Positions 12,910-36,847 of a stretch of 64,000 bases of DNA are shown one piece after another. Each line of letters opens with the position of its first letter. Position 1 is the first letter of the stretch. The position numbers and the translations under genes were made by a program. Source of the stretch: Kaistia algarum (lineage in GTDB: Bacteria > Pseudomonadota > Alphaproteobacteria > Rhizobiales > Kaistiaceae); the NCBI RefSeq assembly GCF_026343945.1, contig NZ_JAPKNJ010000002.1, forward strand, positions 930,001 through 994,000. The letters are read 5' to 3'. The notes below the pieces were generated by a model, which saw only the letters and a list, made by a program, of their open reading frames with translations, did not search any database and was not told the DNA's origin.

Positions 12910-12912
12910 GTC

Positions 12913-13896: not shown

Positions 13897-13990
13897 TCTG
13901 TCTCCTCCTGGACGGTCGTCCTTCGAACGACCTGCTGGTTGGCTTCACGGCACTCGGCACGCGCCTTGGCGTTGCCTGTTGCTCCCTTGC

Positions 13991-15628
13991 TCAGTTGCGA
14001 CCGATGGCGGTCCGTGCGGTCTCGGCCCTCCCGGCCGCCGCAGTTCCTGAAATGGTTGTGGGTTCGACGACCCCGGCGCCAAGCTGGCTCAGCGTCTGGC
14101 GAACGGTCCGGCTGGCAGCGAGATCACGATATTGCCGGTACAAGACCTCATAGATTGCCGCGCGCCGGGCATCGGGTTCGAAGCGGTCATAGGCTCGCGC
14201 GCCGAAGCGCGCCGATCCCTCTGGGAAATCGGCGACGACGCCGGCCGCAACTGCGCCATGGATGGCGGCACCGACTGCGGTCGGATTCAGAATATCGGGC
14301 ACGAGGATTTCAGTGGCCTGCACGTCGGCCATGATCTGCAGGAGCAGAGGGTTACGCCGTGTCAGTCCGCTCGTCAGCACGACCCGGTCCACGGCGAGGT
14401 TACCAGCTCGAAAATGATCGACGATCGAGCGGGCTCCAAAGCACAGTGCTTCCAGAAGCGCCCGGTAGATGTGTGTCGACGTCGTATGAAGACCGAAGCC
14501 CGCAATGAGTCCTGAAAGTGCCGAATCTGCGTAGGGAACGCGGTTTCCACTCCACCAGTCGAGAGCCAGCAGCCGGCTGTCGCCGGGTTGCAGCATGGCA
14601 GCGGCGGCGTCATAGAGGCGGAAACTTTCGCTGCGCTCCTCCGCGCGCGGAAAGGCACTGACGAACCAGGCCAGCACGTCGCCAAAGCCGGCCTGCCCCG
14701 CCTCATAGCACCACAGATCCGGCAGGGCCGCGCCATGGGCGACGCCCTCGATGCCAAATGGCAGCGGGCGATCCGTATCCGCGAGGAGCAGATAGGCCGC
14801 GGATGTGCCCAGAGCCCCGACCAGGGTTCCCGGGCTGACGCCGCCGACCGCCGGCAGCACGACGTGGGAATCAATCACCGCGACGGCGACGGCGGGTTCG
14901 CCCAGTATTCCTGTGCGGGCCTGCCAGGCTGCGTTCAGCCGGCCCGCAGAGGATCCCACCGGCAGCGGCGCCGACAGACGTTCCAAAAGGCCGGGGACGG
15001 TGTCGGACGGATACCCGCTACCTGCCGAGAACTGGGCCTTGTAGGCCGCGAAATCGAGGCTACGCGCCTCGACGCCCGTCAATTGCCAAACGAGCCAATC
15101 ACCCGCCTCGATGAATCGATCGGCTTCACGCCAGATAATCGGTGCCTCGGCCTGGATCTGCGCTGCCTTGGCGAGCAGCCACTCGCCGGACACCTTGCCG
15201 CCGAAATTGTCCAGGAACGCGCCACCGCCGCGATTGATGGATGCGGCATAAGGCTGGGCCGCCGCGTGCTTCCAGAGTTTGACATAGGAATGCGGATCGC
15301 TCGGATAGAGGGCCGAAAGCGCCGTCCCATCGGCACGTGCCGGCAACGGCGAACTGGCCGTAAAGCCAAGACCGATCCCGGCGATTCTCCGGCCGGAACC
15401 AAGGGCCGCAAGGATGACCTCCGCAGCCTCGACATAGTCAGCAGCGTCCTGGAGCGCGAACCCTCTGGGTAGGCCTGTGCCATCTGGAAGCGCGGCGGTC
15501 ATGACGCCGTGGCGATAGGGGAATGCGTGACTGGCGATCTGACTGCCATCGGCGACATCGAGCAGCACGCCGCGCGCTGACTCCGTGCCGAAATCCAGCC
15601 CTATCAGAAAGCTCTCCGCCCCAACCAT
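13991..15628 (-). CDS. FGGY-family carbohydrate kinase, ribulokinase-like
   Basis: A 545-residue kinase of the AraB branch: LIGLDFGTESARGVLLD at the N-terminus (the Asp binds phosphate/Mg), FLDNFGGKVSGEWLLAKAAQ, and the C-terminal domain with VGALGTSAAYLLL and CYEAGQAGFGDVLAWFV. Length and motif order match ribulokinases, which phosphorylate ribulose and related pentuloses at C5. With the SDR downstream the operon could import a pentitol, oxidise it to a pentulose and phosphorylate it (inference). It is the first gene of the operon; an AT-rich palindrome lies about 90 bases upstream of the ATG. Confidence 0.9.
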   Translation of the reverse strand: MVGAESFLIGLDFGTESARGVLLDVADGSQIASHAFPYRHGVMTAALPDGTGLPRGFALQDAADYVEAAEVILAALGSGRRIAGIGLGFTASSPLPARADGTALSALYPSDPHSYVKLWKHAAAQPYAASINRGGGAFLDNFGGKVSGEWLLAKAAQIQAEAPIIWREADRFIEAGDWLVWQLTGVEARSLDFAAYKAQFSAGSGYPSDTVPGLLERLSAPLPVGSSAGRLNAAWQARTGILGEPAVAVAVIDSHVVLPAVGGVSPGTLVGALGTSAAYLLLADTDRPLPFGIEGVAHGAALPDLWCYEAGQAGFGDVLAWFVSAFPRAEERSESFRLYDAAAAMLQPGDSRLLALDWWSGNRVPYADSALSGLIAGFGLHTTSTHIYRALLEALCFGARSIVDHFRAGNLAVDRVVLTSGLTRRNPLLLQIMADVQATEILVPDILNPTAVGAAIHGAVAAGVVADFPEGSARFGARAYDRFEPDARRAAIYEVLYRQYRDLAASRTVRQTLSQLGAGVVEPTTISGTAAAGRAETARTAIGRN

Positions 15629-17997: not shown

Positions 17998-19082
17998 TTA
18001 CATGTGGCCGTCGCGGCGTCGATCGGCGGCCTGATCGAAGGTCAAAATGGCGCCGGACAGGATCGCCGCATCGCCGGCGAAGCGCTCCGCAGCCGTCATG
18101 AGCCCTCCGGCTGCGATCGTCCAGCCGAGCGCGGAGGTGCCGCCCAGCGTCAGATCGTCGGTGCCGCACTTGACCATCACGCCGTTCGTGCCGCCAAGGC
18201 CAGCGATATCGCCCGCGAAGCTCGCATCGGCCGCCTGGTCGAACTCGACCGTCCCCGGATTGGCGATGTTGCCAAGGACAAGATCGGTGTTTCCGATCAG
18301 CGTTCCGGTCTCGACCTGCGTGCCGCCGGATTAGCTGTCGGTACCCGTCAGGATCAGCGTGCCGAGGCCGTTCTTCACGAGGGTCGACGCCCCGGTGAGT
18401 TCAAACGCGATGGTCGCAGTCATGCTGGCGCCCGCCGCCGAGCCGGCACCGACGCGGATTATAGTCGTCCCGCCGGCATCCTGCAGCGCAACGGAATCGC
18501 CTTCGACACGGTAGCCGTCGGCGGCAAACTGCATCCCGGTCACGCCGATCGCGCCGGCGCCGTGCCGCCGATGTAGCCGTCGACCCCGGACAAGGTGAGC
18601 GTGCCGGCGCCCTGCTTCGCCAGCTCGCCGCCGCTGACGACGCCGGTCAGGCCGAGCGTGGTGCTGAAGGCGACATCGAAGACGCGCATGGCCGTCAAGG
18701 TGACGCCGCGCACCGAGGCGATGTCGCCGGTCGTGGACAGCGCTCCGCCATTGAAGATCAAGCCGCCCGCCACCGCGCCGAGATTGGCGTCGGACGACAC
18801 CTGAAGCGTGCCGCCGTCGATCCGCGCGCCGCCGGAATAGGTGTTGGTGCCGGACAGCACCAGAGGGCCGCTTCCGGTCTTGGCAAGCCGCGCCGACGCG
18901 CTACCGTCGGCGATCACCGAGCTGATGCTGGCGCTGACACCGCTGTCCGTCGAAACGACGGCCACAGTGCCCTCGCCGCTCCTCTTTGGAATCTCGGCCC
19001 GCCACCGAGTTATCTCCGTCGCCACGATATGGGATGGCGTGAGCGACGTTCTCCGAGAACTGCCTCGCCCCCATTCCTCCAA
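17998..19082 (-). pseudogene. Autotransporter passenger-domain fragment, broken
   Basis: The minus strand encodes several autotransporter-associated beta-strand repeats: LAKTGSGPLVLSGTNTYSGG, ARIDGGTLQVSSDANLG, LAKQGAGTLTLSGVDGYIGG, then ADGYRVEGDSVALQDAGGTT and LVKNGLGTLILTGTDS. Around 18540 the frame shifts. At about 18333 the repeat motif GTDS-Y-SGG has TAA in place of the tyrosine codon, and the frame then continues with SGGTQVETGTLIGN and KCGTDDLTLGGTSALGW until about 17998. No signal peptide and no C-terminal beta-barrel are present. It was once part of a large secreted adhesin-like protein. Confidence 0.75.
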
Positions 19083-19123
19083 GAAGCATCTTGACTCGGA
19101 CCGCGAACGGCTGTTTCTAGAAC

Positions 19124-19154
19124 GGAAGATATTTCATGTGTTGAAAGATCTTCC
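19124..19154. promoter_or_regulatory. 31-bp nested palindrome, candidate SorC-family operator
   Basis: GGAAGAT (19124-19130) mirrors ATCTTCC (19148-19154), and inside them TTTCA (19132-19136) mirrors TGAAA (19142-19146), all around one centre. It lies 53 bases upstream of the first gene of the operon that encodes a SorC-family regulator. A TTGACT at 19091-19096 could be the -35 element. SorC proteins are tetramers that bind long palindromes, so it fits as their operator; the assignment is by position. Confidence 0.55.
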
Positions 19155-19207
19155 ATAACGATTGCAGCTGGGAGGATCCACTGCGCAATCCAAGGGGAGG
19201 AAATCCA

Positions 19208-20245
19208 ATGACCAGAATAGCCGCAAAGCTTCTGGGCAGTGTCGCGGGCCTCGGTCTCGCGGTATTTGGCTCGGTAGTGCCCCATGCCCAGGCGGCGGAG
19301 CCGTTCCGCTGCGACCCTGGAGAGCTCTATGCAATGAACGTCATGGTGTCCGGGGTCGAATACTGGTTCCCGGTCTATGAGATGTTCAAACAGGCGGCCC
19401 ATCAGATGGGTTGCGACACGATCTATACCGGCACTCCCGACTATGACGTTACCAAGCAGATCGCGAGCTTCGAGCAGGTTCTAGCGCGCCAGCCGAAGGG
19501 GATCCTGGTTCATCCGATGAACGCCGATCCCTTCATCGAGCCGATCAACCGCGCGATCGAACAGGGTACGGCGATCGTCACCTTCGCGGCGGATTCGCCG
19601 AACTCGAACCGCACGGCGTTCATCACGTCGAACAACGATCTGGAGGGGACCGGCGCGGCTGATGCTGTGGCCAAGGCCATGGATGGCAAGGGCGAATATG
19701 CGGTCCTCGAGAATCCGGGCCAAGACAATCACGACCGCCGGATCGCAGCCTTCATCGCCCGGATGGAAGCGAAGTGGCCCAACATGAAGCTCGTGGCCCG
19801 CGCCGCATCGAACCAGGACGCCAACAAGGCCTATCAGGCGGTGCTGTCCATGGCGCAGGCCAATCCGAACCTCGGCGCGATCTTCATGCCCGAGGCGAAC
19901 TCGGCCCTTGGTGCGGCGCAGGCGAGCGTCGAGCTTGGTGGCAAGATCAAGATCATGACGGCTGACGTGAACGCCAAGATCCTCGACATGATCAAGGCCG
20001 GCGAGGTCTTCGGCTCGATCAATCCGAACCAGGGCATGCAGGGCTATCTCGGGTTTCTCACGCTCTACCTGGCGGCTCATCCAGACATGATCGACCCAAT
20101 GAACGATGCCAAGCGGAACGGCAAGAATGCCATGACGATCCCCTATATCGACAATGGCTACGCCGTCGTCACGGCCCAGAACGCCGACGACTTCTATTGG
20201 GACGCCTATCTGAAGCGTCGCGGCACGAAGGGCATCGAGGAATAA
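19208..20245 (+). CDS. Sugar ABC transporter substrate-binding protein (CUT2)
   Basis: A 345-residue periplasmic binding protein. The signal peptide ends at PHAQA, about residue 29. The mature part has MNVMVSGVEYWFPVYEMF, YTGTPDYDVTKQIASFEQVL and VHPMNADPFIEPINRAIEQG, typical of ribose/rhizopine-type binding proteins. The start ATG follows GGGGAGGAAATCC. It is first in a nine-gene plus-strand operon, and a very strong hairpin separates it from the ATPase gene, probably to stabilise its message. Substrate unknown; the downstream enzymes suggest a polyol or polyol derivative. Confidence 0.93.
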   Translation: MTRIAAKLLGSVAGLGLAVFGSVVPHAQAAEPFRCDPGELYAMNVMVSGVEYWFPVYEMFKQAAHQMGCDTIYTGTPDYDVTKQIASFEQVLARQPKGILVHPMNADPFIEPINRAIEQGTAIVTFAADSPNSNRTAFITSNNDLEGTGAADAVAKAMDGKGEYAVLENPGQDNHDRRIAAFIARMEAKWPNMKLVARAASNQDANKAYQAVLSMAQANPNLGAIFMPEANSALGAAQASVELGGKIKIMTADVNAKILDMIKAGEVFGSINPNQGMQGYLGFLTLYLAAHPDMIDPMNDAKRNGKNAMTIPYIDNGYAVVTAQNADDFYWDAYLKRRGTKGIEE

Positions 20246-20259
20246 GACCTCCCGCCATC

Positions 20260-20283
20260 GCCGGCCGGAACTCTCCGGCCGGC
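20260..20283 (+). terminator. Perfect 10-bp hairpin between binding-protein and ATPase genes
   Basis: GCCGGCCGGA (20260-20269) pairs perfectly with TCCGGCCGGC (20274-20283) across a four-base loop. No U-run follows, so it probably acts as a 3' stabiliser or partial attenuator that keeps binding-protein mRNA more abundant than that of the downstream genes. Confidence 0.75.
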
Positions 20284-20326
20284 CCCATCCCCGCTTGAAC
20301 GGCGCGCTCGCGCCGCAGGGTCGTCC

Positions 20327-21834
<1,508 letters not shown>

Positions 21835-21838
<4 letters not shown>

Positions 21839-22806
21839 GCACCAGCGAAACCTCCACCCTCGTTCGCATCGTGCGGGTGCGCGAATTCGGCCTCCTCGCC
21901 ATCATCGCCGTCCTTTTCGTCGTGATGAGCCTGGCATCGCCCTATTTCCTGACCTGGACGAACATGCGGGCGATCCTGCTGTCGTTCTCGATCGAGGGCA
22001 TCGTCGTCATCGGCATGACGATCCTGCTGATCGTCGGCGGCATTGACCTATCCGTGGGCTCCGTGGTGTGTCTGGCCATGGTAATCGGCGGGACGCTGTT
22101 CCTCGCCGGGCTCGACCCCTGGACGGCCAGCCTCATCGCCGTCGCTGTCTGCGGCTTCATCGGCTTTCTGATGGGGCTATGCGTCACCCGGATCGGGCTG
22201 CACTTCTTCATCGTCTCGCTGGCCTTCATGGTCATCACGCGCGGCCTCAGCCTGCTGTTGACCCAGGGGACGCCGCAGTCGCTCTTCTCCTTGCCGCCCG
22301 CCTTCAAGTTCGTGGGTCAGGGCAACCTCAGCGGCGTCCCGTTCGTGATCGTGATCTTCCTCGTCCTGATCGCGCTGTTCGACATATTGCTGCGCCGGTC
22401 GATCCTGTTCCGCCGGGTTTACTACACCGGCTCCAACGAGAAGGCCGCCCGCTTTTCCGGTATCGATACCAAGCGCGCCAAGGTCCTCTGCGCCACCATC
22501 TGCAGCCTCCTGGCTGGGGTTGCCGGCGTCGTCTATATGGCGCGCTTCGGCGCCGCGACGCCCCAGTTCGGCATTGGCATGGAACTGAGCGTGATCGCGG
22601 CCGCCGTGATCGGCGGGGCGAGCCTCAACGGCGGGTCCGGAACGATCGCCGGCGCCGTGCTGGGCGCCGCATTGCTCTCGCTGGTGACGTCGTCACTCAT
22701 CCTGCTGAACGTGCCGGTCTACTGGCAGGATATAATCCGGGGGACGATTCTCCTGGTGGCCGTGACGATCGACCACTTCCTCAATGCCAGCAAGACCCGA
22801 GGCTGA
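21835..22806 (+). CDS. Sugar ABC transporter permease (CUT2)
   Basis: A 323-residue hydrophobic protein with the CUT2 permease motifs LIVGGIDLSVGSVVCLAM and AAAVIGGASLNGGSG and about nine membrane segments. The start overlaps the ATPase stop, giving translational coupling, and the next gene (SorC regulator) begins six bases after its stop. It is the membrane part of the importer for this catabolic operon. Confidence 0.95.
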
Positions 22807-22812
22807 AGTACC

Positions 22813-23796
22813 ATGCCGGCTGCCCTGTTCAGCGAGACCGAAAGGCTGCGACGCATCCACCGGGTGCTCGTCATGCTCTACCAGGAGCACAAGTCCCAGG
22901 CCGAAATTGCGGCGGATATGGGCCTGTCGCCGGCGACGATCAACCGGATGATTCGCGAGGGGCATGAGCGCGGTCTGATCGAGATTCGCGTCCGCTCGCC
23001 CTTTGGCGGGACGGAGGGGCTGGCTTCGGCGCTGAAGCGGGTCGGGAAGCTGGATGGTGCCGTCACCGTGTCGTCGCCGTCGAGCGATCCGGCCATCGTG
23101 CTGAATGCCGTCGCCGATGCGGCCGCCGCCTCGCTGCTCGAGGGTCTCGCCGACGGCATGACCATCGCCGTCTCGGGCGGCGTGGCGCTGTGCGCGGTGA
23201 TCGAGGCGCTGTCGCCGGGCCGGAAATACGACGTTCGCGTGGTACCCGCCACGGGAGGGGTGCAGGGCAAGTTCCGCACCGACGTCAACCATGTCGCCGT
23301 GGCGCTGGCCGAGAAGCTCGGGGGAACGGCCTACCAGCTTCACGCCCCGGTCTTCGCGGCGAACGAGGCCGAGCGGGCGGCGCTGATGTCGGTCTCGACG
23401 ATCCACGGCGTTCTGGAGATGGCTCGGACCGCCGATGTGGCGCTATTCGGCATCGGCTCGGTGCGCGAAGCCGATAGCACCTACCTGACCTTCACCGCGA
23501 CCGTGGACCGCGCTGCGATCGAGCGAGCCGGCGCGGAGGGCGAACTGCTGGCCCATCTCGTCGACGCCGACGGCAGGCCCAGCGCCTACCCCTCCAACCA
23601 GCGCCTCGTCGCGCTGACGCTTGACGAGCTTGCGCGCATCCCGCGGCGCATCGCGGTCGCCTCGGGCGAGCGGAAGGTCGAGCCGATCGCGGCGGTGCTG
23701 CGCGGGGGAACGGTCGGTCATCTGATCACTGACGACGCGACGGCCCGGGACGTGATCCGGAAAATGGAGGGAGCGACAAATGCAGATCCAGCGTGA
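22813..23796 (+). CDS. SorC-family sugar-binding transcriptional regulator
   Basis: A 327-residue SorC/DeoR-like regulator. The N-terminal helix-turn-helix is in HKSQAEIAADMGLSPATINR, and the large C-terminal effector domain resembles a sugar-phosphate isomerase fold with TIAVSGGVALCAVIEAL, VVPATGGVQG and ALFGIGSVREADS. Such regulators usually respond to a phosphorylated intermediate. EryD, which controls erythritol catabolism in rhizobia and Brucella, belongs to the same family and also sits with a CUT2 importer and a GlpD-like enzyme. It overlaps the next gene by 17 bases, and the nested palindrome upstream of the operon is its likely site. Confidence 0.92.
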   Translation: MPAALFSETERLRRIHRVLVMLYQEHKSQAEIAADMGLSPATINRMIREGHERGLIEIRVRSPFGGTEGLASALKRVGKLDGAVTVSSPSSDPAIVLNAVADAAAASLLEGLADGMTIAVSGGVALCAVIEALSPGRKYDVRVVPATGGVQGKFRTDVNHVAVALAEKLGGTAYQLHAPVFAANEAERAALMSVSTIHGVLEMARTADVALFGIGSVREADSTYLTFTATVDRAAIERAGAEGELLAHLVDADGRPSAYPSNQRLVALTLDELARIPRRIAVASGERKVEPIAAVLRGGTVGHLITDDATARDVIRKMEGATNADPA

Positions 23797-24772
23797 GATC
23801 GGATCGAGCGGCGTCTCGGCCAGTGCCGTCGGGCTGGGCACATGGGCGATGGGCGGCTGGATGTGGGGCGGCGGCGACGACGCGGCATCCATCGCAGCGA
23901 TCCGGGCAGCGCTTGATTGCGGCATCACGCTGATCGATACGGCACCGGCCTATGGGCTCGGCCGCGCCGAGGAGATTGTCGGCCGGGCAATCGAAGGCCG
24001 GCGCGATGAGGTCGTGCTGATCACCAAATGCGGCCTCGTCTGGGACACGGACGAGGGTCGGCCCTTTGTCGGGCAGGACGGCAAGATGATCCATCGCTTC
24101 CTCGGTCCGGACTCCGTGCGCCTTGAGCTGGAGGCCAGCCTTCGCCGCCTTCGCACCGATCATGTCGACGTGCTGATCACGCACTGGCAGGACCCGACGA
24201 CCCCGATTGCCGAAACCATGGGCGCGCTGGAGGCGCTGAAGACCGAGGGCAAGATCCGCGCGATCGGCATCAGCAATGCGAGCGTCGAGGATCTGGAGGC
24301 CTATCGGCTTGCGGGCTCCGTCGATTGTGTGCAGGAGGCCTACAACATGCTCGATCGCGGGCTGGAGCAAACGCTTCTTCCGGTCTGCCGCGCTGCCGGC
24401 ATCTCGGTCATCGGCTATTCGAGCCTGGCGCTCGGCCTGCTGACCGGACGCATCGGTCCGGACCGGATTTTCGAGGGCGATGACCTCAGGCGGACTCATC
24501 CGCGCTTCTCGGTGCAGAACCGCGCGCGGGTTGCTGAATTCGCAACGGCGATCGCCGGCATAGCGAGACGCCATGGCGCGGAGATCGGTGACATCGTCAT
24601 CGCCTGGACGCTGGCGCAGCCCGGTATCACCTTCTCTCTCTGCGGGGCCAGGAATGCCGGTCAGTCGATCCAGAATGCCCGCGCCGGCGAACTGACCCTG
24701 ACGGCGGACGACCTCGCGACGATCGACGCCGCCATCGCCGCGCATCTGGGCCCGGTCGCCGCGGCAGCCTGA
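23780..24772 (+). CDS. Aldo/keto reductase
   Basis: A 330-residue NADP(H)-dependent oxidoreductase of the AKR fold. Catalytic residues are in LIDTAPAYGLGRAEEIVG (Asp and Tyr), VLITKCG (Lys) and LITHWQDP (His). The C-terminal cofactor part has SLCGARNAGQSIQNARAGEL. It would interconvert a sugar aldehyde or ketone and an alcohol within the pathway. It is co-transcribed, overlapping the regulator gene by 17 bases and ending three bases before the next start. The substrate cannot be told from sequence. Confidence 0.92.
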   Translation: MQIQREIGSSGVSASAVGLGTWAMGGWMWGGGDDAASIAAIRAALDCGITLIDTAPAYGLGRAEEIVGRAIEGRRDEVVLITKCGLVWDTDEGRPFVGQDGKMIHRFLGPDSVRLELEASLRRLRTDHVDVLITHWQDPTTPIAETMGALEALKTEGKIRAIGISNASVEDLEAYRLAGSVDCVQEAYNMLDRGLEQTLLPVCRAAGISVIGYSSLALGLLTGRIGPDRIFEGDDLRRTHPRFSVQNRARVAEFATAIAGIARRHGAEIGDIVIAWTLAQPGITFSLCGARNAGQSIQNARAGELTLTADDLATIDAAIAAHLGPVAAAA

Positions 24773-24775
24773 TCC

Positions 24776-26461
24776 ATGTCGCATCCCGCCCCGCCAGTTC
24801 CCGAATCCGTCGACGTGCTGGTCATTGGCGGCGGCATCAATGGCATCAGCACGTTTCGCGAACTCGCTCTCCAGGGCGTCGACGTAGCCCTGATGGAGCG
24901 CGACGATTTCTGCTCCGGCGCCAGCGCGGCGCTGTCGCGCATGGTGCATGGCGGCCTGCGCTATATGGAGAACGGCGAGTTCCGGCTGGTGCACCAGTCG
25001 CTGCTCGAACGTGACCGGCTGTTGCGCAATGCCCCGCATTGCGTCTCGCCTCTGCCGACGCTGATCCCGATCAATGTCTGGTTCAAGGGCATGTCGGCGA
25101 CCCTCGCCGCCTTTTTCGGCCGCGGCGGCGGACCGCGGCGGCGGCCTGGCGTCATGGTTCGCCTCGGACTGACGCTCTACGATCTGCTCTCCTGGCGCAG
25201 CCGGACCATGCCGCGCCATCGCGGTCTCGGCCGACGCGAAGCCCGGCGGATGGCTCCCGGACTTACCGGGGACGCGATCGGCGCCGTGCTCTACTACGAC
25301 GCCCGCGTCACCATGCCGGAACGGCTGGGTGTCGAAATGGTGCTCGACACGGAGGCGCAGACCGAGGCTCGCACCTTCTCCTATACCGAGATCGTCGGCG
25401 GGAACCGCGACGGCCTCGTGTGGCGCGACCGGCTGACCGGCGCCAGCGGGCGCATCGCGGCAAAGGTCGTCGTCAACGCGACGGGAGCGTGGGTCGACCA
25501 TGTCGACGGCGCGATCCGACAGGCTGAAAATCGCAGGCGCGTCCAGGGCACCAAGGGTTCGCATCTGATGATCCGCAACGAGGCGCTTCGGGCCGCGCTC
25601 GGCGATCACATGATCTACTACGAGAATTCCGACGGCCGCATCTGCATTGCGTTCAACCATGCCGGCGCGTCGATGGTCGGCTCCACCGACATTCGCGTCG
25701 ACGATCCGGACGATGCCGTCTGCCTGGCCGAGGAGCGCGACTATATGCTCGGCGCGCTCGCCGGCGTTTTTCCGAAACTCGAAATCGTCGATGACGAGAT
25801 CGTCCACGTCTTCACCGGCGTCCGGCCGCTGCCCGTCAGCGGCGACGGTCCGACAGGACGGATCAGCCGCGACCATTCGGTCGAGGTGGAACCCTCCGGC
25901 CCCCTGCCCTATGCGCTCTTGACGCTGATCGGCGGCAAGTGGACCACCTTTCGCGCTTTCGGCGAGGAAGTGGCGGATCTCGCGCTGAAGCAGCTTGGCC
26001 GGCACCGCACGCTGAGCACGCAGGATATGCCGATCGGTGGCGGTCGCGACCTGCCGCTAAAGCCACAGGCGCGGGATCGCTGGGTCCGCGAGCAGGCGGA
26101 GGTAGCGGGCCTCTCCGAAACGGAATTCGGCCGGCTCGCGCGGCGTTATGGCAGCCGGGCCACCCAGGTGGCGCGGTTCATCGGCGAGGGGCCGGACGCG
26201 CCGCTCCACCATGCCGGCGATCATTCGAGGCGAGAGCTGCTGTTCCTGATCTTGCACGAACGGGTGCGCGAGATCGGAGACCTGCTGCTCCGGCGCACCG
26301 CGCTCGGCATCGAGGGCCGGATCAGCCCGTCGCTGGTCGAGGAAGTCGCCGGCATCATGGCCGATCCGCTCGGCTGGTCGGAGGCCGAAAGAGCCGGTGC
26401 CGTCGGCCGCTTCGAGACCATCATGTCCCGCCGCCACCGCGTGCAGGGCGACGATCGCTGA
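24776..26461 (+). CDS. FAD-dependent glycerol-3-phosphate dehydrogenase-like enzyme (GlpD/EryB type)
   Basis: A 561-residue flavoprotein of the GlpD family, which oxidises polyol phosphates and passes electrons to quinone at the membrane. The FAD-binding motif is VLVIGGGINGISTFRELA near residue 14, then CSGASAALSRMVHGGLRYME, VVNATGAWVDHVDGA, and the substrate-side YENSDGRICIAF and VGSTDIRVDDPD. A C-terminal helical cap domain follows (KWTTFRAFGEEVADLAL). Erythritol-phosphate dehydrogenase EryB has the same architecture, and the operon content (CUT2, SorC, kinase) makes a polyol phosphate more likely than glycerol phosphate itself. Start ATG at 24776, three bases after the reductase stop. Confidence 0.9.
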   Translation: MSHPAPPVPESVDVLVIGGGINGISTFRELALQGVDVALMERDDFCSGASAALSRMVHGGLRYMENGEFRLVHQSLLERDRLLRNAPHCVSPLPTLIPINVWFKGMSATLAAFFGRGGGPRRRPGVMVRLGLTLYDLLSWRSRTMPRHRGLGRREARRMAPGLTGDAIGAVLYYDARVTMPERLGVEMVLDTEAQTEARTFSYTEIVGGNRDGLVWRDRLTGASGRIAAKVVVNATGAWVDHVDGAIRQAENRRRVQGTKGSHLMIRNEALRAALGDHMIYYENSDGRICIAFNHAGASMVGSTDIRVDDPDDAVCLAEERDYMLGALAGVFPKLEIVDDEIVHVFTGVRPLPVSGDGPTGRISRDHSVEVEPSGPLPYALLTLIGGKWTTFRAFGEEVADLALKQLGRHRTLSTQDMPIGGGRDLPLKPQARDRWVREQAEVAGLSETEFGRLARRYGSRATQVARFIGEGPDAPLHHAGDHSRRELLFLILHERVREIGDLLLRRTALGIEGRISPSLVEEVAGIMADPLGWSEAERAGAVGRFETIMSRRHRVQGDDR

Positions 26462-26473
26462 AGGGAGGAAATG

Positions 26474-27322
26474 ATGTACCTGACGAAGAAGGTTCGCCTG
26501 AACCGGCTGATGCGCGGCGGTCGCTGTCTCGATGTCGCGATCGATCATGGCGTCTGCAATGAGCCCTCATTCATGGCGGGCATCGAGGACATGGCCGGCG
26601 TCGTGAAGATGCTCGCCGCCGCCGCGCCTGACGCCATCCAGATGAATTACGGCCAGTCGGACCTGCTGCAATCGCTCCCCGGTCCGCATCGCCCCGCCCT
26701 CGTCATGCGGGTCGATATGGGCAATCCCTATAACCGGCAGCGCCACCGTGAGATGTGGGCGGTGCTGCAGAACGAGTCCGACCCCATCCTGCCGGCACTG
26801 CGCATGGATGCCGCCTGCGTTGTCGTGAACCTGTTCATGCTCCCGGATGAGCCCGGGCTGTTCCGGCAATGCGTCCAGAACATCAGCCGCCTCGGCAATG
26901 ATTGCGAGAAATACGGCATGCCGTTGATGATCGAGCCGCTGGTGATGCAACCGAACGAGAAGGGCGGCTATCTCGTTGATGGTGACACCGAGAAGATCGT
27001 GACGCTGGTTCGCCTTGCGCGCGAAATGGGGGCGGACATCGTCAAGGCGGATCCCACCGACGACCCGTCCGAATTCCATCACGTGGTCCAGGCGGCACGA
27101 TGCCCGGTGCTGGTGCGCGGCGGCGGCAAGGCGGATCTCCGCCGGGTGCTGGAGAATTCGGCCCTGCTGATGGGGCAAGGTGCACACGGCATGGTCTATG
27201 GCCGCAACATCTACCAGCACGACAATCCCCGCGCCGTGGTCGCCGCGCTGATGGCGATCATCCATGACGGCGCGGACGCCGACGCGGCTTGGTCGATCTA
27301 TGGCGGCAGTGCATCGCCATGA
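26474..27322 (+). CDS. Class I aldolase of the DeoC/FbaB (LsrF-like) family
   Basis: About 282 residues with a TIM-barrel aldolase pattern: CLDVAIDHGVCNEPSF near the N-terminus, MIEPLVMQ in the middle, the probable Schiff-base lysine in ADIVKADPTDDP near residue 191, and the phosphate-binding VLVRGGGKAD and GAHGMVYGRNIYQH at the end. Such enzymes split ketose phosphates into dihydroxyacetone phosphate or a related keto product and an aldehyde. Two adjacent ATGs exist; GGGAGG is only two bases from the first but five from the second (26474), so I choose the second. The kinase start overlaps its stop codon (ATGA). Confidence 0.88.
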   Translation: MYLTKKVRLNRLMRGGRCLDVAIDHGVCNEPSFMAGIEDMAGVVKMLAAAAPDAIQMNYGQSDLLQSLPGPHRPALVMRVDMGNPYNRQRHREMWAVLQNESDPILPALRMDAACVVVNLFMLPDEPGLFRQCVQNISRLGNDCEKYGMPLMIEPLVMQPNEKGGYLVDGDTEKIVTLVRLAREMGADIVKADPTDDPSEFHHVVQAARCPVLVRGGGKADLRRVLENSALLMGQGAHGMVYGRNIYQHDNPRAVVAALMAIIHDGADADAAWSIYGGSASP

Positions 27323-28821
27323 CCGCCTTCCTGGGCATCGACGCGGGCAATACGGGCGTCAAGGCTGTGCTGTTCGACGCCGACGGTACCGAGCTTGCCC
27401 GCGCGCATCGCGACACCGGCGGAACCAGCCCGGCGCCCGGCATGGTCGAGCGCGATATCGGCCGCTTCCGCACCGACCTCGACGAACTCATCCGCGAGGT
27501 CATCGCCAGGAGCGGGCGGAGCAGTTCGGATATCGCCGGAATCGGAACGTCGGGGCACGGCAACGGCCTCTATCTGCTGGGCGCCGGGGGCGAGCCGGTG
27601 ATCGCGATCCAGTCGCTCGATACCCGCGCCGCCGGGCTCGTGGATGAATGGAGCGCCAGCGGCGTCGCGGAGGCGGCGGCCGCGATCTGCCTGCAGCGGC
27701 CCTGGCCGTCGCAGACGCCGACGCTTCTCGCCTGGATGAAGCGCCACCGGCCGGAGGCGCTCGCCGGCGCTCGCCATCTCGTCTTCTGCAAGGACATCGT
27801 CACCCACGCGCTGACAGGAGAGTTCGCGAGCGACGTCTCCGACATGGGCGGCGCCGGCCTGCTGCGGCTGCCGGGCAACGGCTACGACGCCGAGTTGCTG
27901 GCACTGTACGGCATCGACGACCTTGAGCCGTTGCTGCCACCGCTTTTCTGGCCGACCGATGTCGTCGGCGTCGTCACGACGGCGGCGAGCGAGCGTACCG
28001 GCCTCGCGCCAGGCACGCCGGTGGTTGCCGGCTTCTTTGACGTGGTCGCGAGTGCCGTCGGGGCGGGTGTGACGCGGCCGGGCCAGGCCTCCGTCATCCT
28101 GGGGACATGGAGCATCAACCAGGCGATCGTCGGGACCCCGGTGCCCGGTGTATTCATGTCGGCTGCCATCGAGCCCGGCCGCTACATGTCGATGGACAAT
28201 TCCGCGACCTCGGCCGCCAATCTCGAATGGATCGCCCATCACCTGCTCTCCCATGACGAGCGGCGGACCCACGGGGCCTTCGCGCTCGCTGACGCCCTCG
28301 CGCTCGCCGCGCCTCCGCGCGCCGACGGTCCGCTGTATCACCCCTATATCTATGGCGCGGGCCATGATCCGAGCGCCCGCGCGGGCTTCTTCGGGCTGGC
28401 CGGCTGGCATGATGCCGGCGATCTGATGCGCTCATTGTTCGAGGGGGTGGCCTTTGCCCATCTCGCTCATATCGAACGCCTGCGCGCCTCAGGCGTCGAT
28501 CTCGGCTTGATCACGCTCTCAGGTGGCGGCTCCAAGAGTCCGGTCTGGCCGCAGATGATGTCTGACATGCTCGGAGCGCCGGTGCGCGTCGCGGTTCAGA
28601 CAGAGACGGGAGCGCTTGGCGCCGCCATGGCCGCCGCAGTCGGGACCGGCTGCTACGCCAGCCTGGATGCGGCTTCGATCGCCATGGTCGCGCCGGCACG
28701 CGATGTGTCGCCGGATCAACGACTCGGTTTGCACTATCGCCGCCGCTACGCGCTCTGGCAGGCCCTGGAGAAGAGCCTGAAGCCACACTGGGATGCGTTG
28801 AGGAAGCTTGGGGATGCGTGA
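27319..28821 (+). CDS. FGGY carbohydrate kinase, L-xylulokinase (LyxK)-like
   Basis: A 500-residue sugar kinase: [20 protein letters not shown] at the N-terminus, [55 protein letters not shown] and [20 protein letters not shown]. These follow E. coli LyxK more closely than XylB or glycerol kinase. It would phosphorylate a ketose, or a polyol as erythritol kinase does, before the GlpD-like or aldolase step. The start at 27319 overlaps the aldolase stop; an in-frame start 30 bases earlier is inside the aldolase. The 3' end overlaps the oxidoreductase gene by eight bases. Confidence 0.9.
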
Positions 28822-30418
28822 GGGGAGCGACAGCTACGACTACATCGTCGTGGGCGCCGGGTCGGCAGGATGCGTATTGGCCAATCGGCTGTCGGAGCCG
28901 TCCGGCACGCGCGTATTGCTGATCGAGGCCGGCGGCTCCGACCGCTATCCCTGGATCCATATCCCGGTCGGCTACCTCTACTGCATTGGCAATCCGCGCA
29001 CGGACTGGATGTATCGGACGGTACCGGAGCCGGGACTGGGCGGCCGCTCGATCGCCTATCCGCGCGGCAAGGTCATGGGTGGCAGTTCGTCGATCAATGG
29101 CATGATCTACATGCGCGGCCAGGCAGCCGACTATGACGGCTGGGCACAAATGGGGCTCAAGGGATGGAGTTGGGACGAAGTCCTGCCAATTTTCGTGAAA
29201 TCGGAGCGGTACCATCGGACTGCCCTTGGCCATGGCACGGAGGGTGAAATGCGCGTCGAGCGCCAGCGCTTGCGCTGGCCCGTGCTCGACGCGGTGCGGG
29301 AGGCCGCGGTGGAGATCGGCATTCGGCCGACGGATGATTTCAATCGCGGCGACAATGAGGGGTCAGGCTATTTCGAAGTCACGCAGCGCGGCGGCATCCG
29401 CTGGAGTTCGGCGCGGGCCTTTCTCGGCGCAGAAATCAAGCGCCGGCCGAACCTCACGATCCTGAGCCACGCTCAAGTCGTCGAACTGGCATTTGAAGGC
29501 ACACGCGTGGCCGGCGTGGTGTTCGAGCGCGACGGCGTCCGTCAGAAGGCAGCGGCCCGGCGGCAGGTAGTGCTCGCCGCCGGCGCCATCGGTACGCCGC
29601 AAATATTGATGCTCTCCGGCCTCGGTCCGGCGGAGCATCTGAAGGATCACGGCATCGAGGTCCGGCGCGATCTGAGAGGTGTTGGTGCGAACCTGCAGGA
29701 CCATCTGCAGATCCGTACGGCATTTCGGATCAGCGGTGCCCGAACGCTCAACGACATGCAGGCGACCTTCCTCGGCAAGGCGCGGATCGCGGCCGAATTC
29801 GCCCTTTCCCGCTCGGGTCCGATGGCCATGGCGCCGAGCCAGCTCGGCCTCTTCACCCGTTCGCACCCGCGCTACGCGACCCCGAACGTCGAGTTTCATG
29901 TCCAGCCCCTGTCTCTCGATGCGTTCGGCCAGCCGCTGCACACCTACCCGGCCATCACGGTTTCGGTCTGCAACCTCCGGCCCAACAGCGCCGGCTCGGT
30001 CCGCCTGGCTTCGGCCGACCACAAGGACGCGCCGACCATCGCGCCGAACTATCTTTCCGACGCCGAGGACCGGGAAGTCGCGATCGAGTCGATCCGCCTT
30101 GCGAGACGCCTCATGGCGACGCGGCGGATGGCGGACTTGAAGCCGCAGGAGACGGCGCCTGGCGCACAGATCGATACGGATGCCGATCTGCTCGTTGCCG
30201 CGAGCCGGATTGCGACGACGATATTTCACCCCGTGGGAACCGCTCGCATGGGGATGGCCGACGACCCGATGGCGGTCCTCGACGCCAGCCTCCAGGTCCG
30301 CGGCGTCGAGGGCCTGACGGTTGCCGACGCTTCGGCCATGCCGCGGATCGTTTCGGGCAACACCCACGCGCCAGTGGTGATGATCGCCGAGCGCGCAGCG
30401 ACGTTTCTAAAGGCCTGA
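28814..30418 (+). CDS. GMC-family FAD oxidoreductase (choline dehydrogenase-like)
   Basis: A 534-residue alcohol-oxidising flavoprotein. The ADP-binding motif is [22 protein letters not shown] signature 1 is [14 protein letters not shown] and signature 2 [15 protein letters not shown]; the active-site His is in [10 protein letters not shown] and the C-terminal [15 protein letters not shown] closes the FAD site. It probably oxidises a primary or secondary alcohol of the imported compound. ATG 28814 is preceded by AGGAAG and overlaps the kinase stop; a TTG two codons earlier is less likely. It is the last gene of the operon, with no clear terminator behind it. Confidence 0.92.
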
Positions 30419-30896
30419 CGATCAACGACCACTGGACGGGTAGTATCCGCAACGGTCTGGTGAACAATGGGCATCAGGCTCCGTCACGTGGCCGACCATC
30501 CGCCGTCAGACAGCTGGATCCGGATTGGAGCGTGATCGCTGCCACGCTCCCATGCCCGAACACGACGATCGACACAGTCCGGGATCAGGCTCTTCGCGAC
30601 ACTTGGGTTGAGGAACGGTGGATCGATCTGGAGATCAGCACCGGGGCATAGGCGTTGGGCCAATATCGCCGGAATGTGCCGATGGAGCCGTTGGGGTGTA
30701 GACGGCATGGCGTCATCCAGAGAGCGCCTGCCGCGTCGGCAGAGTTAGCCGAGGGTCACCTCGGGAAAATAGATAGTTAGGCGATCCAAGCCGAGGCCTG
30801 CATTGCGCGCCTGTTCACAGCTCGGCCGCACGTAGGCGAACGCCGCCCCACATCGAACACTGCTCTTCAGGGTGAGACGGGTGCCGCGAACGAGGC
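30419..30896. other. Intergenic stretch without a recognisable gene
   Basis: About 480 bases separate the convergent GMC oxidoreductase and carboxypeptidase genes. Frames of 60-75 codons exist on both strands, but none has a ribosome binding site or a family motif I can name. No strong terminator hairpin with a U-run was found, which is notable between two convergent transcription units. Confidence 0.5.
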
Positions 30897-32489
30897 CTAA
30901 TAACCCTGTTGAATGGCGACAGCGACCGCGGCGACATCCGCCCGGGCGGCGCTGTAGTCTTCCAGCGACGGGAACGGGACGTTGTTGACCATCACGCTGT
31001 AGGCGAGCCGGCGCCCGCTCCTGGCGTCGATATAGCCGGTCTGGGTGGTGGCCAGCGCGACGAGTTTCCCCGCGGGGCTCCCCGCCACGATGTCGCCGTC
31101 CTTGATCCGGACATGGCCCGCCGCCGGCGTTCCGACGCCGTTTGGCGCCTGCGAGCCGTCAACGCCGAGCACGGCCATGCCGTCATGAATGGCGGCACCC
31201 CAGCGGGTCGGTGCTATCTCGCGAAGGAATGTAGCAAGGTCCGACGGCGTCGTCCTGTTGTTGTTGCTGGTCCCCGCACCGTCAAAGATATAGGTGCTGG
31301 TCGGCGAGATGCCGTGCTCGGCGAGGAGCTTCGAGACTTCATCCAGCCCCTTGCCGCAATCGCGGCTTCCGGCCCTAACCGCGGCGAGACAGACCATGAG
31401 GTCGGCGCCGCGGTTGTAGCTTACCTTCAGGATAACCTTGACGAATTCCGACAGCGGCGGCGAGACATATTCCGCCACCCGATTGGCATCGCCATAGTCG
31501 GCTGCGTTTGGAAGTGCGCCGGGCACCCCGAGCGGCGCTGCCGCGACCTTGATGCCGGCCCGGACCAGCGCCTCGATGAAGGCGGTACGTGCGAAGGCAG
31601 TGGGATCGGCGATTTGGGAAATCGTCAGAATCGGCGGGCTGCCCAAAGCGATCTTGCCGTTGACTTGGATCACGCCTGGCCGGGGCGTTGTGACTTCGAG
31701 CGGCCCGGCCGGGCTGGCGACCGTGGTGACATCGTTCTCCACGCTTATCGCCGCGCTCTTCGGACGCCAGTCGATCTCGGCTTTCTCACCGGCCTTGGTC
31801 GGCGTCACCAGGATATCGATGTTGTTCTCATTGACCCAGATGGGCGCAATGGCTCCTGCGGAAAACCCTCGGTAAGTCTCGAAGAGCCGGTCGTCGATGG
31901 CGACGTCGCCGGCGACTTCATCGATGCCCGCCGCCTTCACCTGGGCCGCCAATGCATCGAGCGCCGCGAGCGGATCGCTGTTCTTGACATAGGCCCCGCC
32001 GGGGAACCCGGTATAGGTAGTGTTGTGATCGACCTCCGGCAGGCTGTTGAAGCCAAGGGTGCCGTCTGGCTGGGTTCGGAGCCCGAAGTTGAAATCGCCC
32101 GAAGCGAGGAGCACGAGGTCTCCGGCAAGAACGTGATCCTTGACCTCTCCAAGCCTGTACACCGGCGTGCGGAAGCGATAGTCCGCGCCATAGTCGTGAA
32201 GAGCGGTCGCGATGCTGTAGATCTTCATGACGGAAGCCGGCAACAGAGACTTATCTCCCGCCTCGTCGATCAGCACGTCTCCCGTGGCGAGATCCACCAG
32301 GTGAATGCCCCAACTGCTATGGGCGAACGCCGGCTTGGCCTGAATATTCCGTATGGCGTCGGCAACGGAGACGGGAATCGCCGCGGGCCCCGCCGCCCCG
32401 CCGGCCGCGGTCGCTGCACCTCCAAACCCCAGCAGGAGGGTGAGTACCAGCCCGGCGCTTCCGATCTTTGTCGATGCAGGGATGTTCAC
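30897..32489 (-). CDS. dacB: D-alanyl-D-alanine carboxypeptidase/endopeptidase (PBP4, peptidase S13)
   Basis: A 530-residue periplasmic penicillin-binding protein that trims or cuts peptidoglycan peptides. A signal peptide ending in ATAAGG precedes the catalytic domain. The active-site serine is in SVMK (86-89) within LLPASVMKIYS, and the second motif is SYN in KVSYNRGADLMV. The third motif, normally KTG, reads KDG in VRIKDGDIVAG, an unusual change. A long S13-type insert lies between motifs one and two. I start at GTG 32487-32489, behind AAGGAAGGG and before the signal peptide; the open frame to 32858 overlaps the divergent gene. Its place between sugar cassettes looks incidental. Confidence 0.9.
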   Translation of the reverse strand: MNIPASTKIGSAGLVLTLLLGFGGAATAAGGAAGPAAIPVSVADAIRNIQAKPAFAHSSWGIHLVDLATGDVLIDEAGDKSLLPASVMKIYSIATALHDYGADYRFRTPVYRLGEVKDHVLAGDLVLLASGDFNFGLRTQPDGTLGFNSLPEVDHNTTYTGFPGGAYVKNSDPLAALDALAAQVKAAGIDEVAGDVAIDDRLFETYRGFSAGAIAPIWVNENNIDILVTPTKAGEKAEIDWRPKSAAISVENDVTTVASPAGPLEVTTPRPGVIQVNGKIALGSPPILTISQIADPTAFARTAFIEALVRAGIKVAAAPLGVPGALPNAADYGDANRVAEYVSPPLSEFVKVILKVSYNRGADLMVCLAAVRAGSRDCGKGLDEVSKLLAEHGISPTSTYIFDGAGTSNNNRTTPSDLATFLREIAPTRWGAAIHDGMAVLGVDGSQAPNGVGTPAAGHVRIKDGDIVAGSPAGKLVALATTQTGYIDARSGRRLAYSVMVNNVPFPSLEDYSAARADVAAVAVAIQQGY

Positions 32490-35066: not shown

Positions 35067-35561
35067 TTATACCACCTCGATCTGCGTCAGGAGCCGGGCC
35101 GATCTAGAAGTCCGCGAATAGAATATCGCACTGCAATTTGGCGACAACCGATAAGAATATACGTTAGACGCAACCGTGTAGGCCCCACGCAGGCCCATAT
35201 TCATTCCAGAAAAGACTCGCTTTGCTTCATTGAGTTTCATGTCACGGTAGACGCCGACAGACGAGAAGTTGAAGACACCTCGGCCAGCGAATGCTTGTCC
35301 TGGTTTTCCAGGCCGGACAACAATGAGAAATATCTGTAACACGTTCAGTCCATTGGCCTGGAAATGGAATTCTACGTCGTCAAACTCAAAATAGCCGCGC
35401 GCAGGTTCATCATTACCCAGACGCACTGGGTTCCATCGCTTTTTGAGCGATGTATATCTGTTCACTAGAGCGGTGAACTCCTGACTGGACATTCCGACGC
35501 CAATCGGGCCAAATCTCCGCTCCTCAGCGAGCTCTTCAATACTTCCGTCAATGGTTATCAT
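35067..35561 (-). CDS. Putative immunity protein for the Rhs toxin
   Basis: A 164-residue soluble protein without a recognised family: [18 protein letters not shown] at the start, [20 protein letters not shown] and [20 protein letters not shown] in the first half, and a basic C-terminus. Its ATG overlaps the Rhs toxin stop codon (ATGA), the tight coupling expected of a toxin and its immunity gene. The gene is AT-richer than the core of the Rhs gene, as is typical for exchanged tip and immunity pairs. The role is inferred from position only. Confidence 0.65.
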
Positions 35562-36847
35562 TTTGGCTGTCGTTTATTATTATCATCTTTTCCATTGCCT
35601 GAGTTTCCAGGACGTCCTTTTTCTTTGCTCTCATCATTTATATTGGAGGACACGGAGGGCTTAACACCCTTCTCAAGCCGTTTCGCAATTTCTTCCATTT
35701 CATCAGCGCGGCTCTTGCTCTTGGTCTTCATCTTTTCGATGCGTCCTCTGATTTGATCGATCGCCTTCTGCAGTCCCTTAGGAGTGTCCAGTGATCCTGC
35801 GAATTCCTTGACTTTAGCTTTCCAACCACTTTTCTTTCGATCGCCATCGTCGACTGGACCGATTTCGACACCGCCATCCGGCCCCAATCTTATTCCGACG
35901 TGAACGCCGCCGTGGTTGACATGAGGTCCCTTGTTCAACCAGTCTCCGTCGCCGCCCCAAACCCAAGGTCCATTCCACGAGGCCCTCGACTCTGCGGGTT
36001 GTTCAAATGTCCCAATCGCCGGCGGCGCAGTCAGTGCGTTCAGCATAGACTGCTGGGCAGCTTTGCCGCTGTCAGTATTGTTCCAAAGATAGGTGGCAAC
36101 TGCGCCAACCACGATCACCCCAGCCGTCCACGCTAGATAGCCCTCGCCAATACACCCGTCCCATAAGCAGTGCCCGTTCGGATCGGCCTTGTTGACCGGA
36201 TCATTCCCGGAATAGGCATAGCGGTTCGTCCCGACGGCATTGGCCAACCATCCGGTGGCGCCGCCCTTGACGGCTGTTCCCGCATCGATCGGATCGAAAT
36301 CGTCCGGGTTGACGAACAACCCAATGGCCGGGTCGTACCAGCGGGCGTTCAGATCCAGCAGGCCGGTGTCGACGTCGTGACGCTGGCCGACGAAGCCGCG
36401 GGTCTCACCGCCGCAGGAGAGGGTTGAGACCGGGATCTTCGAACCGAACGCGGTGAAGCGCTGGCGCATGGCGATGTTGCCGGAAGAGTCTGTCTCCAAC
36501 TTGACCGAGGCGAGGTGGTCGCGGTGGACGAAGCACGTCGTCGTGCCGACCTTGCGGATGTCAGGATTGGGGATCTTGGTCAGGACACCGGCATCGTCGA
36601 GTTCGCTCGTGCCGAGGAGATAGCTGGTCTTGGCCGGGTTGGTGCCGACAGTCGCGACGGTCTTGATGCGACTGCCGTCGGGGCCATAGGCGTAAGCCGT
36701 CGTGGCAGCCACCTGTACAACGGAGACCAGACGATTGTCGCCATCATAGGCGAGCGTCTTCGGTGCCAGATTGCCGTCATAGCCGTTGGTCAGATTGCCA
36801 TTGGCGTCGCAGGTCCGCGTCAGCGCATCTTGCGGGCAAGTCTGCAA
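35558..36847 (-). CDS. Rhs-family polymorphic toxin, N-terminally truncated, with C-terminal toxin tip
   Basis: 429 residues. Residues 1-90 are the end of YD-repeat sequence ([43 protein letters not shown]). About 95-225 form the conserved core ([58 protein letters not shown]). Then a hydrophobic stretch, [19 protein letters not shown], and a variable tip with [18 protein letters not shown] and a charged, low-complexity end. Full Rhs proteins exceed 1,000 residues; here the apparent TTG start lies just after an in-frame stop 18 bases upstream, so the shell-forming N-terminus is missing and the gene may be silent. Tip activity not recognised. Confidence 0.8.
36196..36600 (-). repeat. 405-bp direct repeat, copy B (Rhs core)
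   Basis: Partner of 34611-35015, same strand and same length with no gaps needed. It encodes the Rhs core from HRDHLASVK to GNDPV. Identity is highest at the core's upstream end and drops toward the tip junction, as expected if the copies recombine there. Confidence 0.9.

Follow-up and report, generated by a model that had tools for sequence, protein, structure and literature searches.

A Conserved Nine-Gene Catabolic Operon of Kaistia algarum with a LyxK-Like Kinase, a GlpD-Type Dehydrogenase and a Schiff-Base Aldolase: A Candidate Route for Small-Polyol Use

A stretch of 64,000 nt from Kaistia algarum (NZ_JAPKNJ010000002.1, positions 930,001–994,000, forward strand; the window hereafter) contains a real, conserved catabolic operon that is composed of known protein families and is not found described in the literature searched. 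Its products include a sugar importer, a SorC-family regulator, a LyxK-like FGGY kinase, a GlpD-type flavin adenine dinucleotide (FAD) dehydrogenase (GlpD2) and a Schiff-base aldolase. With a rough probability of 0.55, the operon is a dedicated route for a small polyol, or for a sugar reduced to a polyol, in which the kinase, the FAD dehydrogenase and the aldolase would act in this order. This pathway reading is well motivated.

Gene Content of the Operon

The initial annotation, made from the sequence alone, proposed nine tightly packed genes of named families acting as one catabolic unit. The gene content is confirmed: all nine open reading frames are present on the + strand (19208–30418), at the same coordinates and in the same order, and each matches the family proposed for it; the single catabolic unit is also supported. 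The features are as follows.

19124–19154, no strand: palindrome GGAAGATATTTCA-N5-TGAAAGATCTTCC, probable SorC operator; unique in the genome, with half-sites recurring upstream of relatives
19208–20245, +: periplasmic sugar-binding protein of a CUT2-type importer (Peripla_BP_4)
20327–21838, +: sugar ATP-binding cassette (ABC) transporter ATPase, double ABC (RbsA-type model 493 bits, under its cut-off of 745)
21835–22806, +: ABC transporter permease, BPD_transp_2 (PF02653, 134.8 bits); ATGA overlap with the ATPase gene
22813–23796, +: SorC-family regulator (PF04198 sugar-binding domain, 187.6 bits)
23780–24772, +: aldo/keto reductase (AKR; PF00248, 224 bits)
24776–26461, +: GlpD-type FAD dehydrogenase, GlpD2, predicted polyol-phosphate dehydrogenase (PF01266, PF16901)
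26471–27322, +: DhnA/DeoC-type Schiff-base aldolase (PF01791, 182.8 bits)
27319–28821, +: LyxK-like FGGY kinase (FGGY_N, FGGY_C); alternative start TTG 27289
28814–30418, +: GMC-family FAD oxidoreductase (PF00732, PF05199); alternative start TTG 28808

The widest intergenic gap is 81 bp, between the binding-protein and ATPase genes. The ATPase and permease genes share an ATGA (21835–21838), the SorC and AKR genes overlap by 17 bp, and the aldolase stop codon (27320–27322) is overlapped by the ATGA of the kinase start at ATG 27319, which is most likely the true start rather than TTG 27289, as judged from the sequence. The GMC gene has an in-frame ATG at 28814 besides the TTG at 28808. Families were assigned with Pfam and NCBIfam, and that of the GMC protein with Pfam alone. 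No curated NCBIfam cut-off is reached among the matches listed for the eight operon proteins other than the GMC protein (for the ATPase, 25 of 188), and therefore no curated function can be transferred. In public records, the genes bear generic names, or are labeled glycerol-3-phosphate dehydrogenase/oxidase and class I fructose-bisphosphate aldolase.

Conservation and Distribution

A scan of a genome collection seeded with the aldolase yields 361 relatives, the best 80 of which were kept; 75 of these loci extend far enough on both sides to be judged. The loci were picked by aldolase similarity (72.6–92% identity), and the counts therefore describe close relatives. The initial annotation proposed a search for the same gene order in other genomes; the order is kept in all 75 evaluable loci, rhizobial loci included, so the grouping of the genes is more than chance. 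The SorC regulator, AKR, GlpD-type dehydrogenase, aldolase and kinase are each present in 75/75 loci, the importer genes in 74/75 and the GMC gene in 59/75.

In an even sample of the class, the aldolase is found at E ≤ 1e-40 in 9 of 385 genomes (K. algarum counted), and the distribution of the operon is patchy. The dehydrogenase is found at E ≤ 1e-70 in 9 of 337 genomes, eight of them aldolase carriers and the ninth (G116) not. Three of the nine aldolase-carrying genomes belong to one family (f36; loci L105, L106, and L143), and in these the dehydrogenase gene directly follows the SorC gene with no AKR match between; the full stretches of L105 and L106 have no GMC match either. Loci L083 and L135 have a different, two-permease importer instead, which gives weak matches only, the best being to the Thermotoga ribose-binding protein. 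Locus L109 has the AKR, dehydrogenase, aldolase and kinase genes, with no importer or SorC match in the stretch. Given that the AKR, the importer or SorC, or the GMC gene varies among these loci, the parts that stay constant in the loci examined are the dehydrogenase, the aldolase and the kinase; the AKR is nearly so, and the GMC protein is the most dispensable. Judged from the more distant f36 genomes with their missing AKR, the importer and SorC also seem to belong to the core, together with these three enzymes. The two extra oxidoreductases of the initial annotation are thus present but look accessory, the GMC gene being absent from 16/75 loci and the AKR gene from between SorC and dehydrogenase in the three f36 genomes.

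Many bacteria of soil, root nodules and the sea carry the operon in this gene order. It is found on pSymB of Sinorhizobium meliloti 1021, at 515.4–526.7 kb of NC_003078.1, and on pRL12 of Rhizobium johnstonii 3841, at 822.4–833.8 kb of NC_008378.1; in S. meliloti RCAM1115 a single gene separates it from upstream genes annotated araG/araH. Flanking genes differ between the genomes examined, and no recurrent extra gene was noticed, in the absence of a systematic count. Examples are class II aldolase and SDR genes (L109), and SMP-30 lactonase and PntAB transhydrogenase genes, which follow the operon in an Oceanospirillaceae metagenome-assembled genome (L083, 12984–17020).

The literature was searched by family names, pRL12 tags and estimated S. 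meliloti tags, and no description of the operon is found in the open-licence papers that it covers (most subscription papers lie outside); the earlier statement that no described pathway has exactly this gene set holds for this body of work. The binding protein of the S. meliloti operon is, by our estimate, probably SMb20504. SMb20504 is placed in module 6, and proteins whose levels fall when phaR is deleted are enriched in modules 4–6 (PMC12542648). SupABCD (SMb20484–87) is predicted for psicose (PMC4961836); we take it to be a separate locus close by, since the gene that follows it is described there as an isomerase.

Dehydrogenase, Aldolase and Accessory Oxidoreductases

Most of the GlpD site residues checked are kept in the window dehydrogenase, which supports its description as a GlpD-like enzyme. 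At nine GlpD positions that we take to be functionally important, seven residues are identical (GlpD H50, R54, Y55, H233, R317, R332, and K354, corresponding to H58, R62, Y63, H263, R350, R365, and K388 of the window enzyme), and two are replaced (GlpD R200 by K and C320 by P). A tree of 31 dehydrogenases, for which the program warns of long branches, joins EryB, E. coli GlpD and the GlpD of K. algarum itself in a three-row clade (100/100), and places the window enzyme among the other 28 rows (the GlpD2 group). Six of the seven kept residues are invariant in these 28 rows, and R54 is K in four of them. The window dehydrogenase is predicted to act on a polyol phosphate. A second GlpD2-type protein, 42% identical to that of the window, is encoded elsewhere in the K. 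algarum genome (C2:467000–486000; L149, 8464–12111), beside genes whose products have N-termini that look, by eye, like methylthioribose kinase and enolase-phosphatase; this locus is possibly a salvage pathway with the same type of dehydrogenase.

The aldolase K192 aligns with LsrF K203, which is presumably the catalytic lysine. The phosphate-binding GG and GRN loops are conserved in 9 aligned sequences, and K192 and GRN are invariant in 12 aldolase sequences. The best solved folds are ADH synthase with dihydroxyacetone phosphate (DHAP), LsrF and archaeal fructose-bisphosphate aldolase. The initial annotation suggested that the phosphorylated product could be split to DHAP, and an aldolase of a DHAP-binding fold class is borne out. 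A database search with the aldolase gives 7983 matches, and only generic aldolase names occur among the 120 listed.

Among NCBIfam models, that of YdjG methylglyoxal reductase fits the AKR best, with 256 bits against a cut-off of 550, and the nearest solved structure is GSP69 (1pz1). The nearest solved structure for the GMC protein is 8b7s (386.5 bits).

Kinase and Its Pairing with GlpD2

The description of the kinase as LyxK-like is upheld: among five named reference kinases, E. coli LyxK scores best (260 bits, 32% identity), followed by LsrK (156), EryA (136), XylB (117) and GlpK (68). A tree of 38 kinases puts the window kinase together with LyxK inside a 27-row clade (98/92) that excludes EryA, LsrK, XylB and GlpK, with LyxK as the sole named reference kinase within it; several reference branches are long and draw a program warning, including that of LsrK and that of EryA (3.76), whose join is weak (88/65). 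The FGGY domains and the catalytic Asp are present, and the G(L/F)FDVV catalytic motif is common to the window kinase and LyxK. LyxK is a pentulose kinase that phosphorylates L-xylulose; its gene belongs to a 2,3-diketo-L-gulonate operon that encodes neither GlpD2 nor a DhnA aldolase.

The pair of a LyxK-like kinase and GlpD2 also occurs beside other kinds of aldolase. A plasmid cluster of Sagittula sp. P11 (SorC–GlpD2–FGGY–lsrF–class II aldolase) resembles the window operon in GlpD2 (43%), kinase (43%), SorC (40%) and overlapping genes, but an lsrF gene (27%) and a class II aldolase gene replace the DhnA aldolase, and no CUT2 importer, AKR or GMC gene is annotated in the stretch examined. On pRL12, GlpD2 (42%) and kinase (38%) genes adjoin a convergent class II fba gene. 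Kinase and GlpD2 genes also lie close together in Agrobacterium, where they are adjacent, and in R. tumorigenes and Vibrio nigripulchritudo, where a single gene separates them (the V. nigripulchritudo pair being divergent); no aldolase is annotated in the examined stretches of these three. In Marivivens GlpD2 is encoded near a dihydroxyacetone kinase gene. Genes for distant aldolases (44–52%) are accompanied in L091 and L137 by those for a PfkB kinase and a Gfo/Idh oxidoreductase, and a D-lyxose-isomerase-family gene is present in L091 and L138. Taken together, these neighborhoods speak for a sugar phosphate as substrate; the lyxose isomerase gives a weak hint at a pentulose.

Relation to the ery, lsr and ydj Systems

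The importer has the CUT2 makeup of a Peripla_BP_4 binding protein, a double ATPase and a BPD_transp_2 permease. Its parts are 25–37% identical to their ery counterparts, and the scores do not discriminate well between ery and lsr: the ATPase scores 324 bits with ery against 320 with LsrA, the permease 160 with ery against 106 with LsrC (ery being ahead of LsrD as well), and the binding protein 58 with ery against 48 with LsrB (21% identity). Among solved binding proteins AraP is the nearest, and an identity of 32% is too low to settle the ligand. The SorC protein gives 110 bits (28% identity) with LsrR and 74 bits with EryD (29% over 206 residues).

R. johnstonii 3841 carries on pRL12 both an orthologue of the window operon and an ery-type locus, which we take to be ery itself, with a kinase, a dehydrogenase, a TIM-barrel protein, SorC, DeoR, triose-phosphate isomerase and RpiB. 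The two share the same kinds of part (CUT2 importer, FGGY kinase, GlpD-type dehydrogenase and SorC), whereas isomerases, with no aldolase gene in between, are encoded in the ery locus. The resemblance to ery noted initially stands for the importer, which is of the same broad kind, but a close relation of the enzymes is not supported: EryB is 30% identical and groups with E. coli GlpD, and EryA falls outside the kinase clade. As first noted, the ery isomerases EryC, TpiB and RpiB are absent, none being found among the nine genes by Pfam. Another kinase/GlpD2 pair, equipped with a DeoR regulator of its own, lies beside the R. johnstonii ery locus (L121, 8837–13034).

The E. coli lsr operon likewise combines a CUT2 importer, a SorC regulator (LsrR), an FGGY kinase (LsrK) and LsrF, an enzyme of the DhnA fold that has a Schiff-base lysine. 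The window operon differs in having one permease gene instead of two, in the added GlpD2, AKR and GMC genes, and in lacking LsrG, no gene for this isomerase being found among the nine by Pfam.

In the E. coli ydj cluster, a dehydrogenase, a kinase, an aldolase and an AKR act jointly on a polyol or ketose, the products being DHAP and a reduced aldehyde. This is presumably the same logic, and the best NCBIfam model of the window AKR comes from this cluster; the ydj enzymes, in contrast, are taken to belong to other families (PfkB kinase, zinc dehydrogenases and class II aldolase).

Proposed Pathway and Alternative Readings

In the small-polyol route, the CUT2 importer would take up the polyol, and the LyxK-like kinase would phosphorylate a terminal hydroxyl. 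GlpD2 would then oxidize the neighboring hydroxyl, probably passing electrons to quinone, to give a ketose 1-phosphate, which the Schiff-base aldolase is expected to cleave into DHAP, for use in glycolysis, and an aldehyde with three carbons fewer than the substrate. The AKR may reduce the released aldehyde or make the polyol from a sugar, the GMC protein, where present, may handle an alcohol or aldehyde side product, and SorC would regulate the operon from the upstream palindrome. A first guess at the substrate is a pentitol, yielding DHAP and glycolaldehyde. More broadly, and tentatively, the operon may represent a widespread alphaproteobacterial route for pentitols or similar polyols in which a ketose 1-phosphate is cleaved to give DHAP and glycolaldehyde, bypassing both isomerases and the pentose phosphate pathway; it would then belong to a larger set of modules in which a LyxK-like kinase and GlpD2 recruit different aldolases. 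The same chemistry on a hexitol, a deoxyhexitol or a longer sugar, releasing glyceraldehyde, lactaldehyde or a longer aldehyde, is possible at similarly modest odds, which lie within those of the small-polyol route; a binding protein nearest to a pentose-binding one and a kinase nearest to a pentulose kinase speak against it, both as weak hints.

A different order of steps, in which the AKR, the GMC protein or both form a ketose or aldose for the kinase to phosphorylate and the aldolase to cleave, with GlpD2 recycling a phosphorylated side product or glycerol 3-phosphate, would agree with the L-xylulose kinase LyxK as the nearest named kinase, and with the distant aldolases of L091 and L137, whose neighbors include kinases and a sugar isomerase, while the stretches scanned there give no match to GlpD2. 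It is nevertheless unlikely: GlpD2 is present in all of the close and f36 loci in which the GMC or AKR gene is missing, a bystander dehydrogenase is not expected to be an invariant part, and the kinase and GlpD2 recur as neighbors in other clusters (once with one gene between). That the operon is a divergent erythritol pathway, with a tetritol or another ery-type polyol as substrate, is improbable despite the likeness in kind of kinase, dehydrogenase, regulator and importer and the somewhat higher permease score with ery than with LsrC or LsrD, because R. johnstonii 3841 has both systems, EryB and EryA lie outside the GlpD2 and kinase clades, the ery isomerases are absent, and, on chemical grounds, cleavage of a tetrulose 1-phosphate would release formaldehyde. 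A relative of lsr that imports and destroys a signal-like diketone or furanone would account for the same four kinds of part (importer, SorC, FGGY kinase and LsrF-like enzyme), but is improbable given that the kinase is nearer to LyxK, with LsrK on its long branch outside the clade, that the aldolase and the binding protein share 28% and 21% identity with LsrF and LsrB, respectively, and that no LsrG-like isomerase is among the nine genes; we also know of no place for GlpD2 in autoinducer-2 breakdown.

S. meliloti 1021 and R. johnstonii 3841 are genetically tractable symbionts, so the substrate is open to knock-outs and growth tests. Its identification would assign a substrate to the binding protein and to kinase, dehydrogenase and aldolase clades that are now annotated generically, or with glycerol-3-phosphate dehydrogenase and fructose-bisphosphate aldolase labels that are perhaps misleading, and could add a missing carbon source to models of rhizosphere nutrition.

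Upstream Palindrome

The 31-bp palindrome (19124–19154) ends 53 bp before the first gene. Even when up to 3 mismatches are allowed, the 5.26-Mb genome contains no second site, and 0.00 occurrences are expected from shuffles of the window. The half-site pair TGAAATAT/ATATTTCA, with up to 2 mismatches, occurs upstream of 71 of 81 operons (those of the window, the usable loci among L011–L088, and L105, L107, L110, L133, and L136), in two spacings, 65 overlapping and 6 with 5 bp between; L133 duplicates L054, the Kaistia defluvii locus, so both counts of distinct loci are one lower. In resampled sequences the pair has a mean of 0.13 and a maximum of 1, a contrast that is not a clean p-value because the motif is derived from the same, related sequences. 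The pair is not found upstream of L105 and L053. The SorC protein probably controls its own operon via this palindrome as a putative operator. Within 18950–30960, a sigma-70 promoter scan finds none, and 6 terminator-like sites are near the shuffled mean of 4.2.

Origin of the Window Copy

The simplest reading of the sequence comparisons is that the window copy was gained horizontally. Within the genus Kaistia, the aldolase is found in 5 of 14 genomes, that of K. algarum included, and the other four copies are 75% identical to it, whereas Inquilinus aldolases are 91–92% identical. DNA identity over the operon is 78% to L011, L014, and L018, but falls to 69% for the two Kaistia loci included in the comparison; beyond the operon there are only short matches (35–131 bp), from 38.8–42.0 kb of the window. 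The record of L011 is titled Mycobacterium sp. KBS0706, a name that is probably wrong; its aldolase is 90% identical to that of the window, like those of Inquilinus.

Other Features of the Window

At 35558–36847 (−), within a stretch of lower G+C, a protein is encoded that has no Pfam match and whose N-terminus reads, by eye, like RHS/YD repeats. Directly upstream of the operon (18543–19082, −) lies a short open reading frame with a PATR autotransporter-passenger repeat (PF12951), which looks like a gene remnant. At 11857–15628 (−), another CUT2 permease gene and a binding-protein gene beside an FGGY kinase gene constitute a separate sugar operon.

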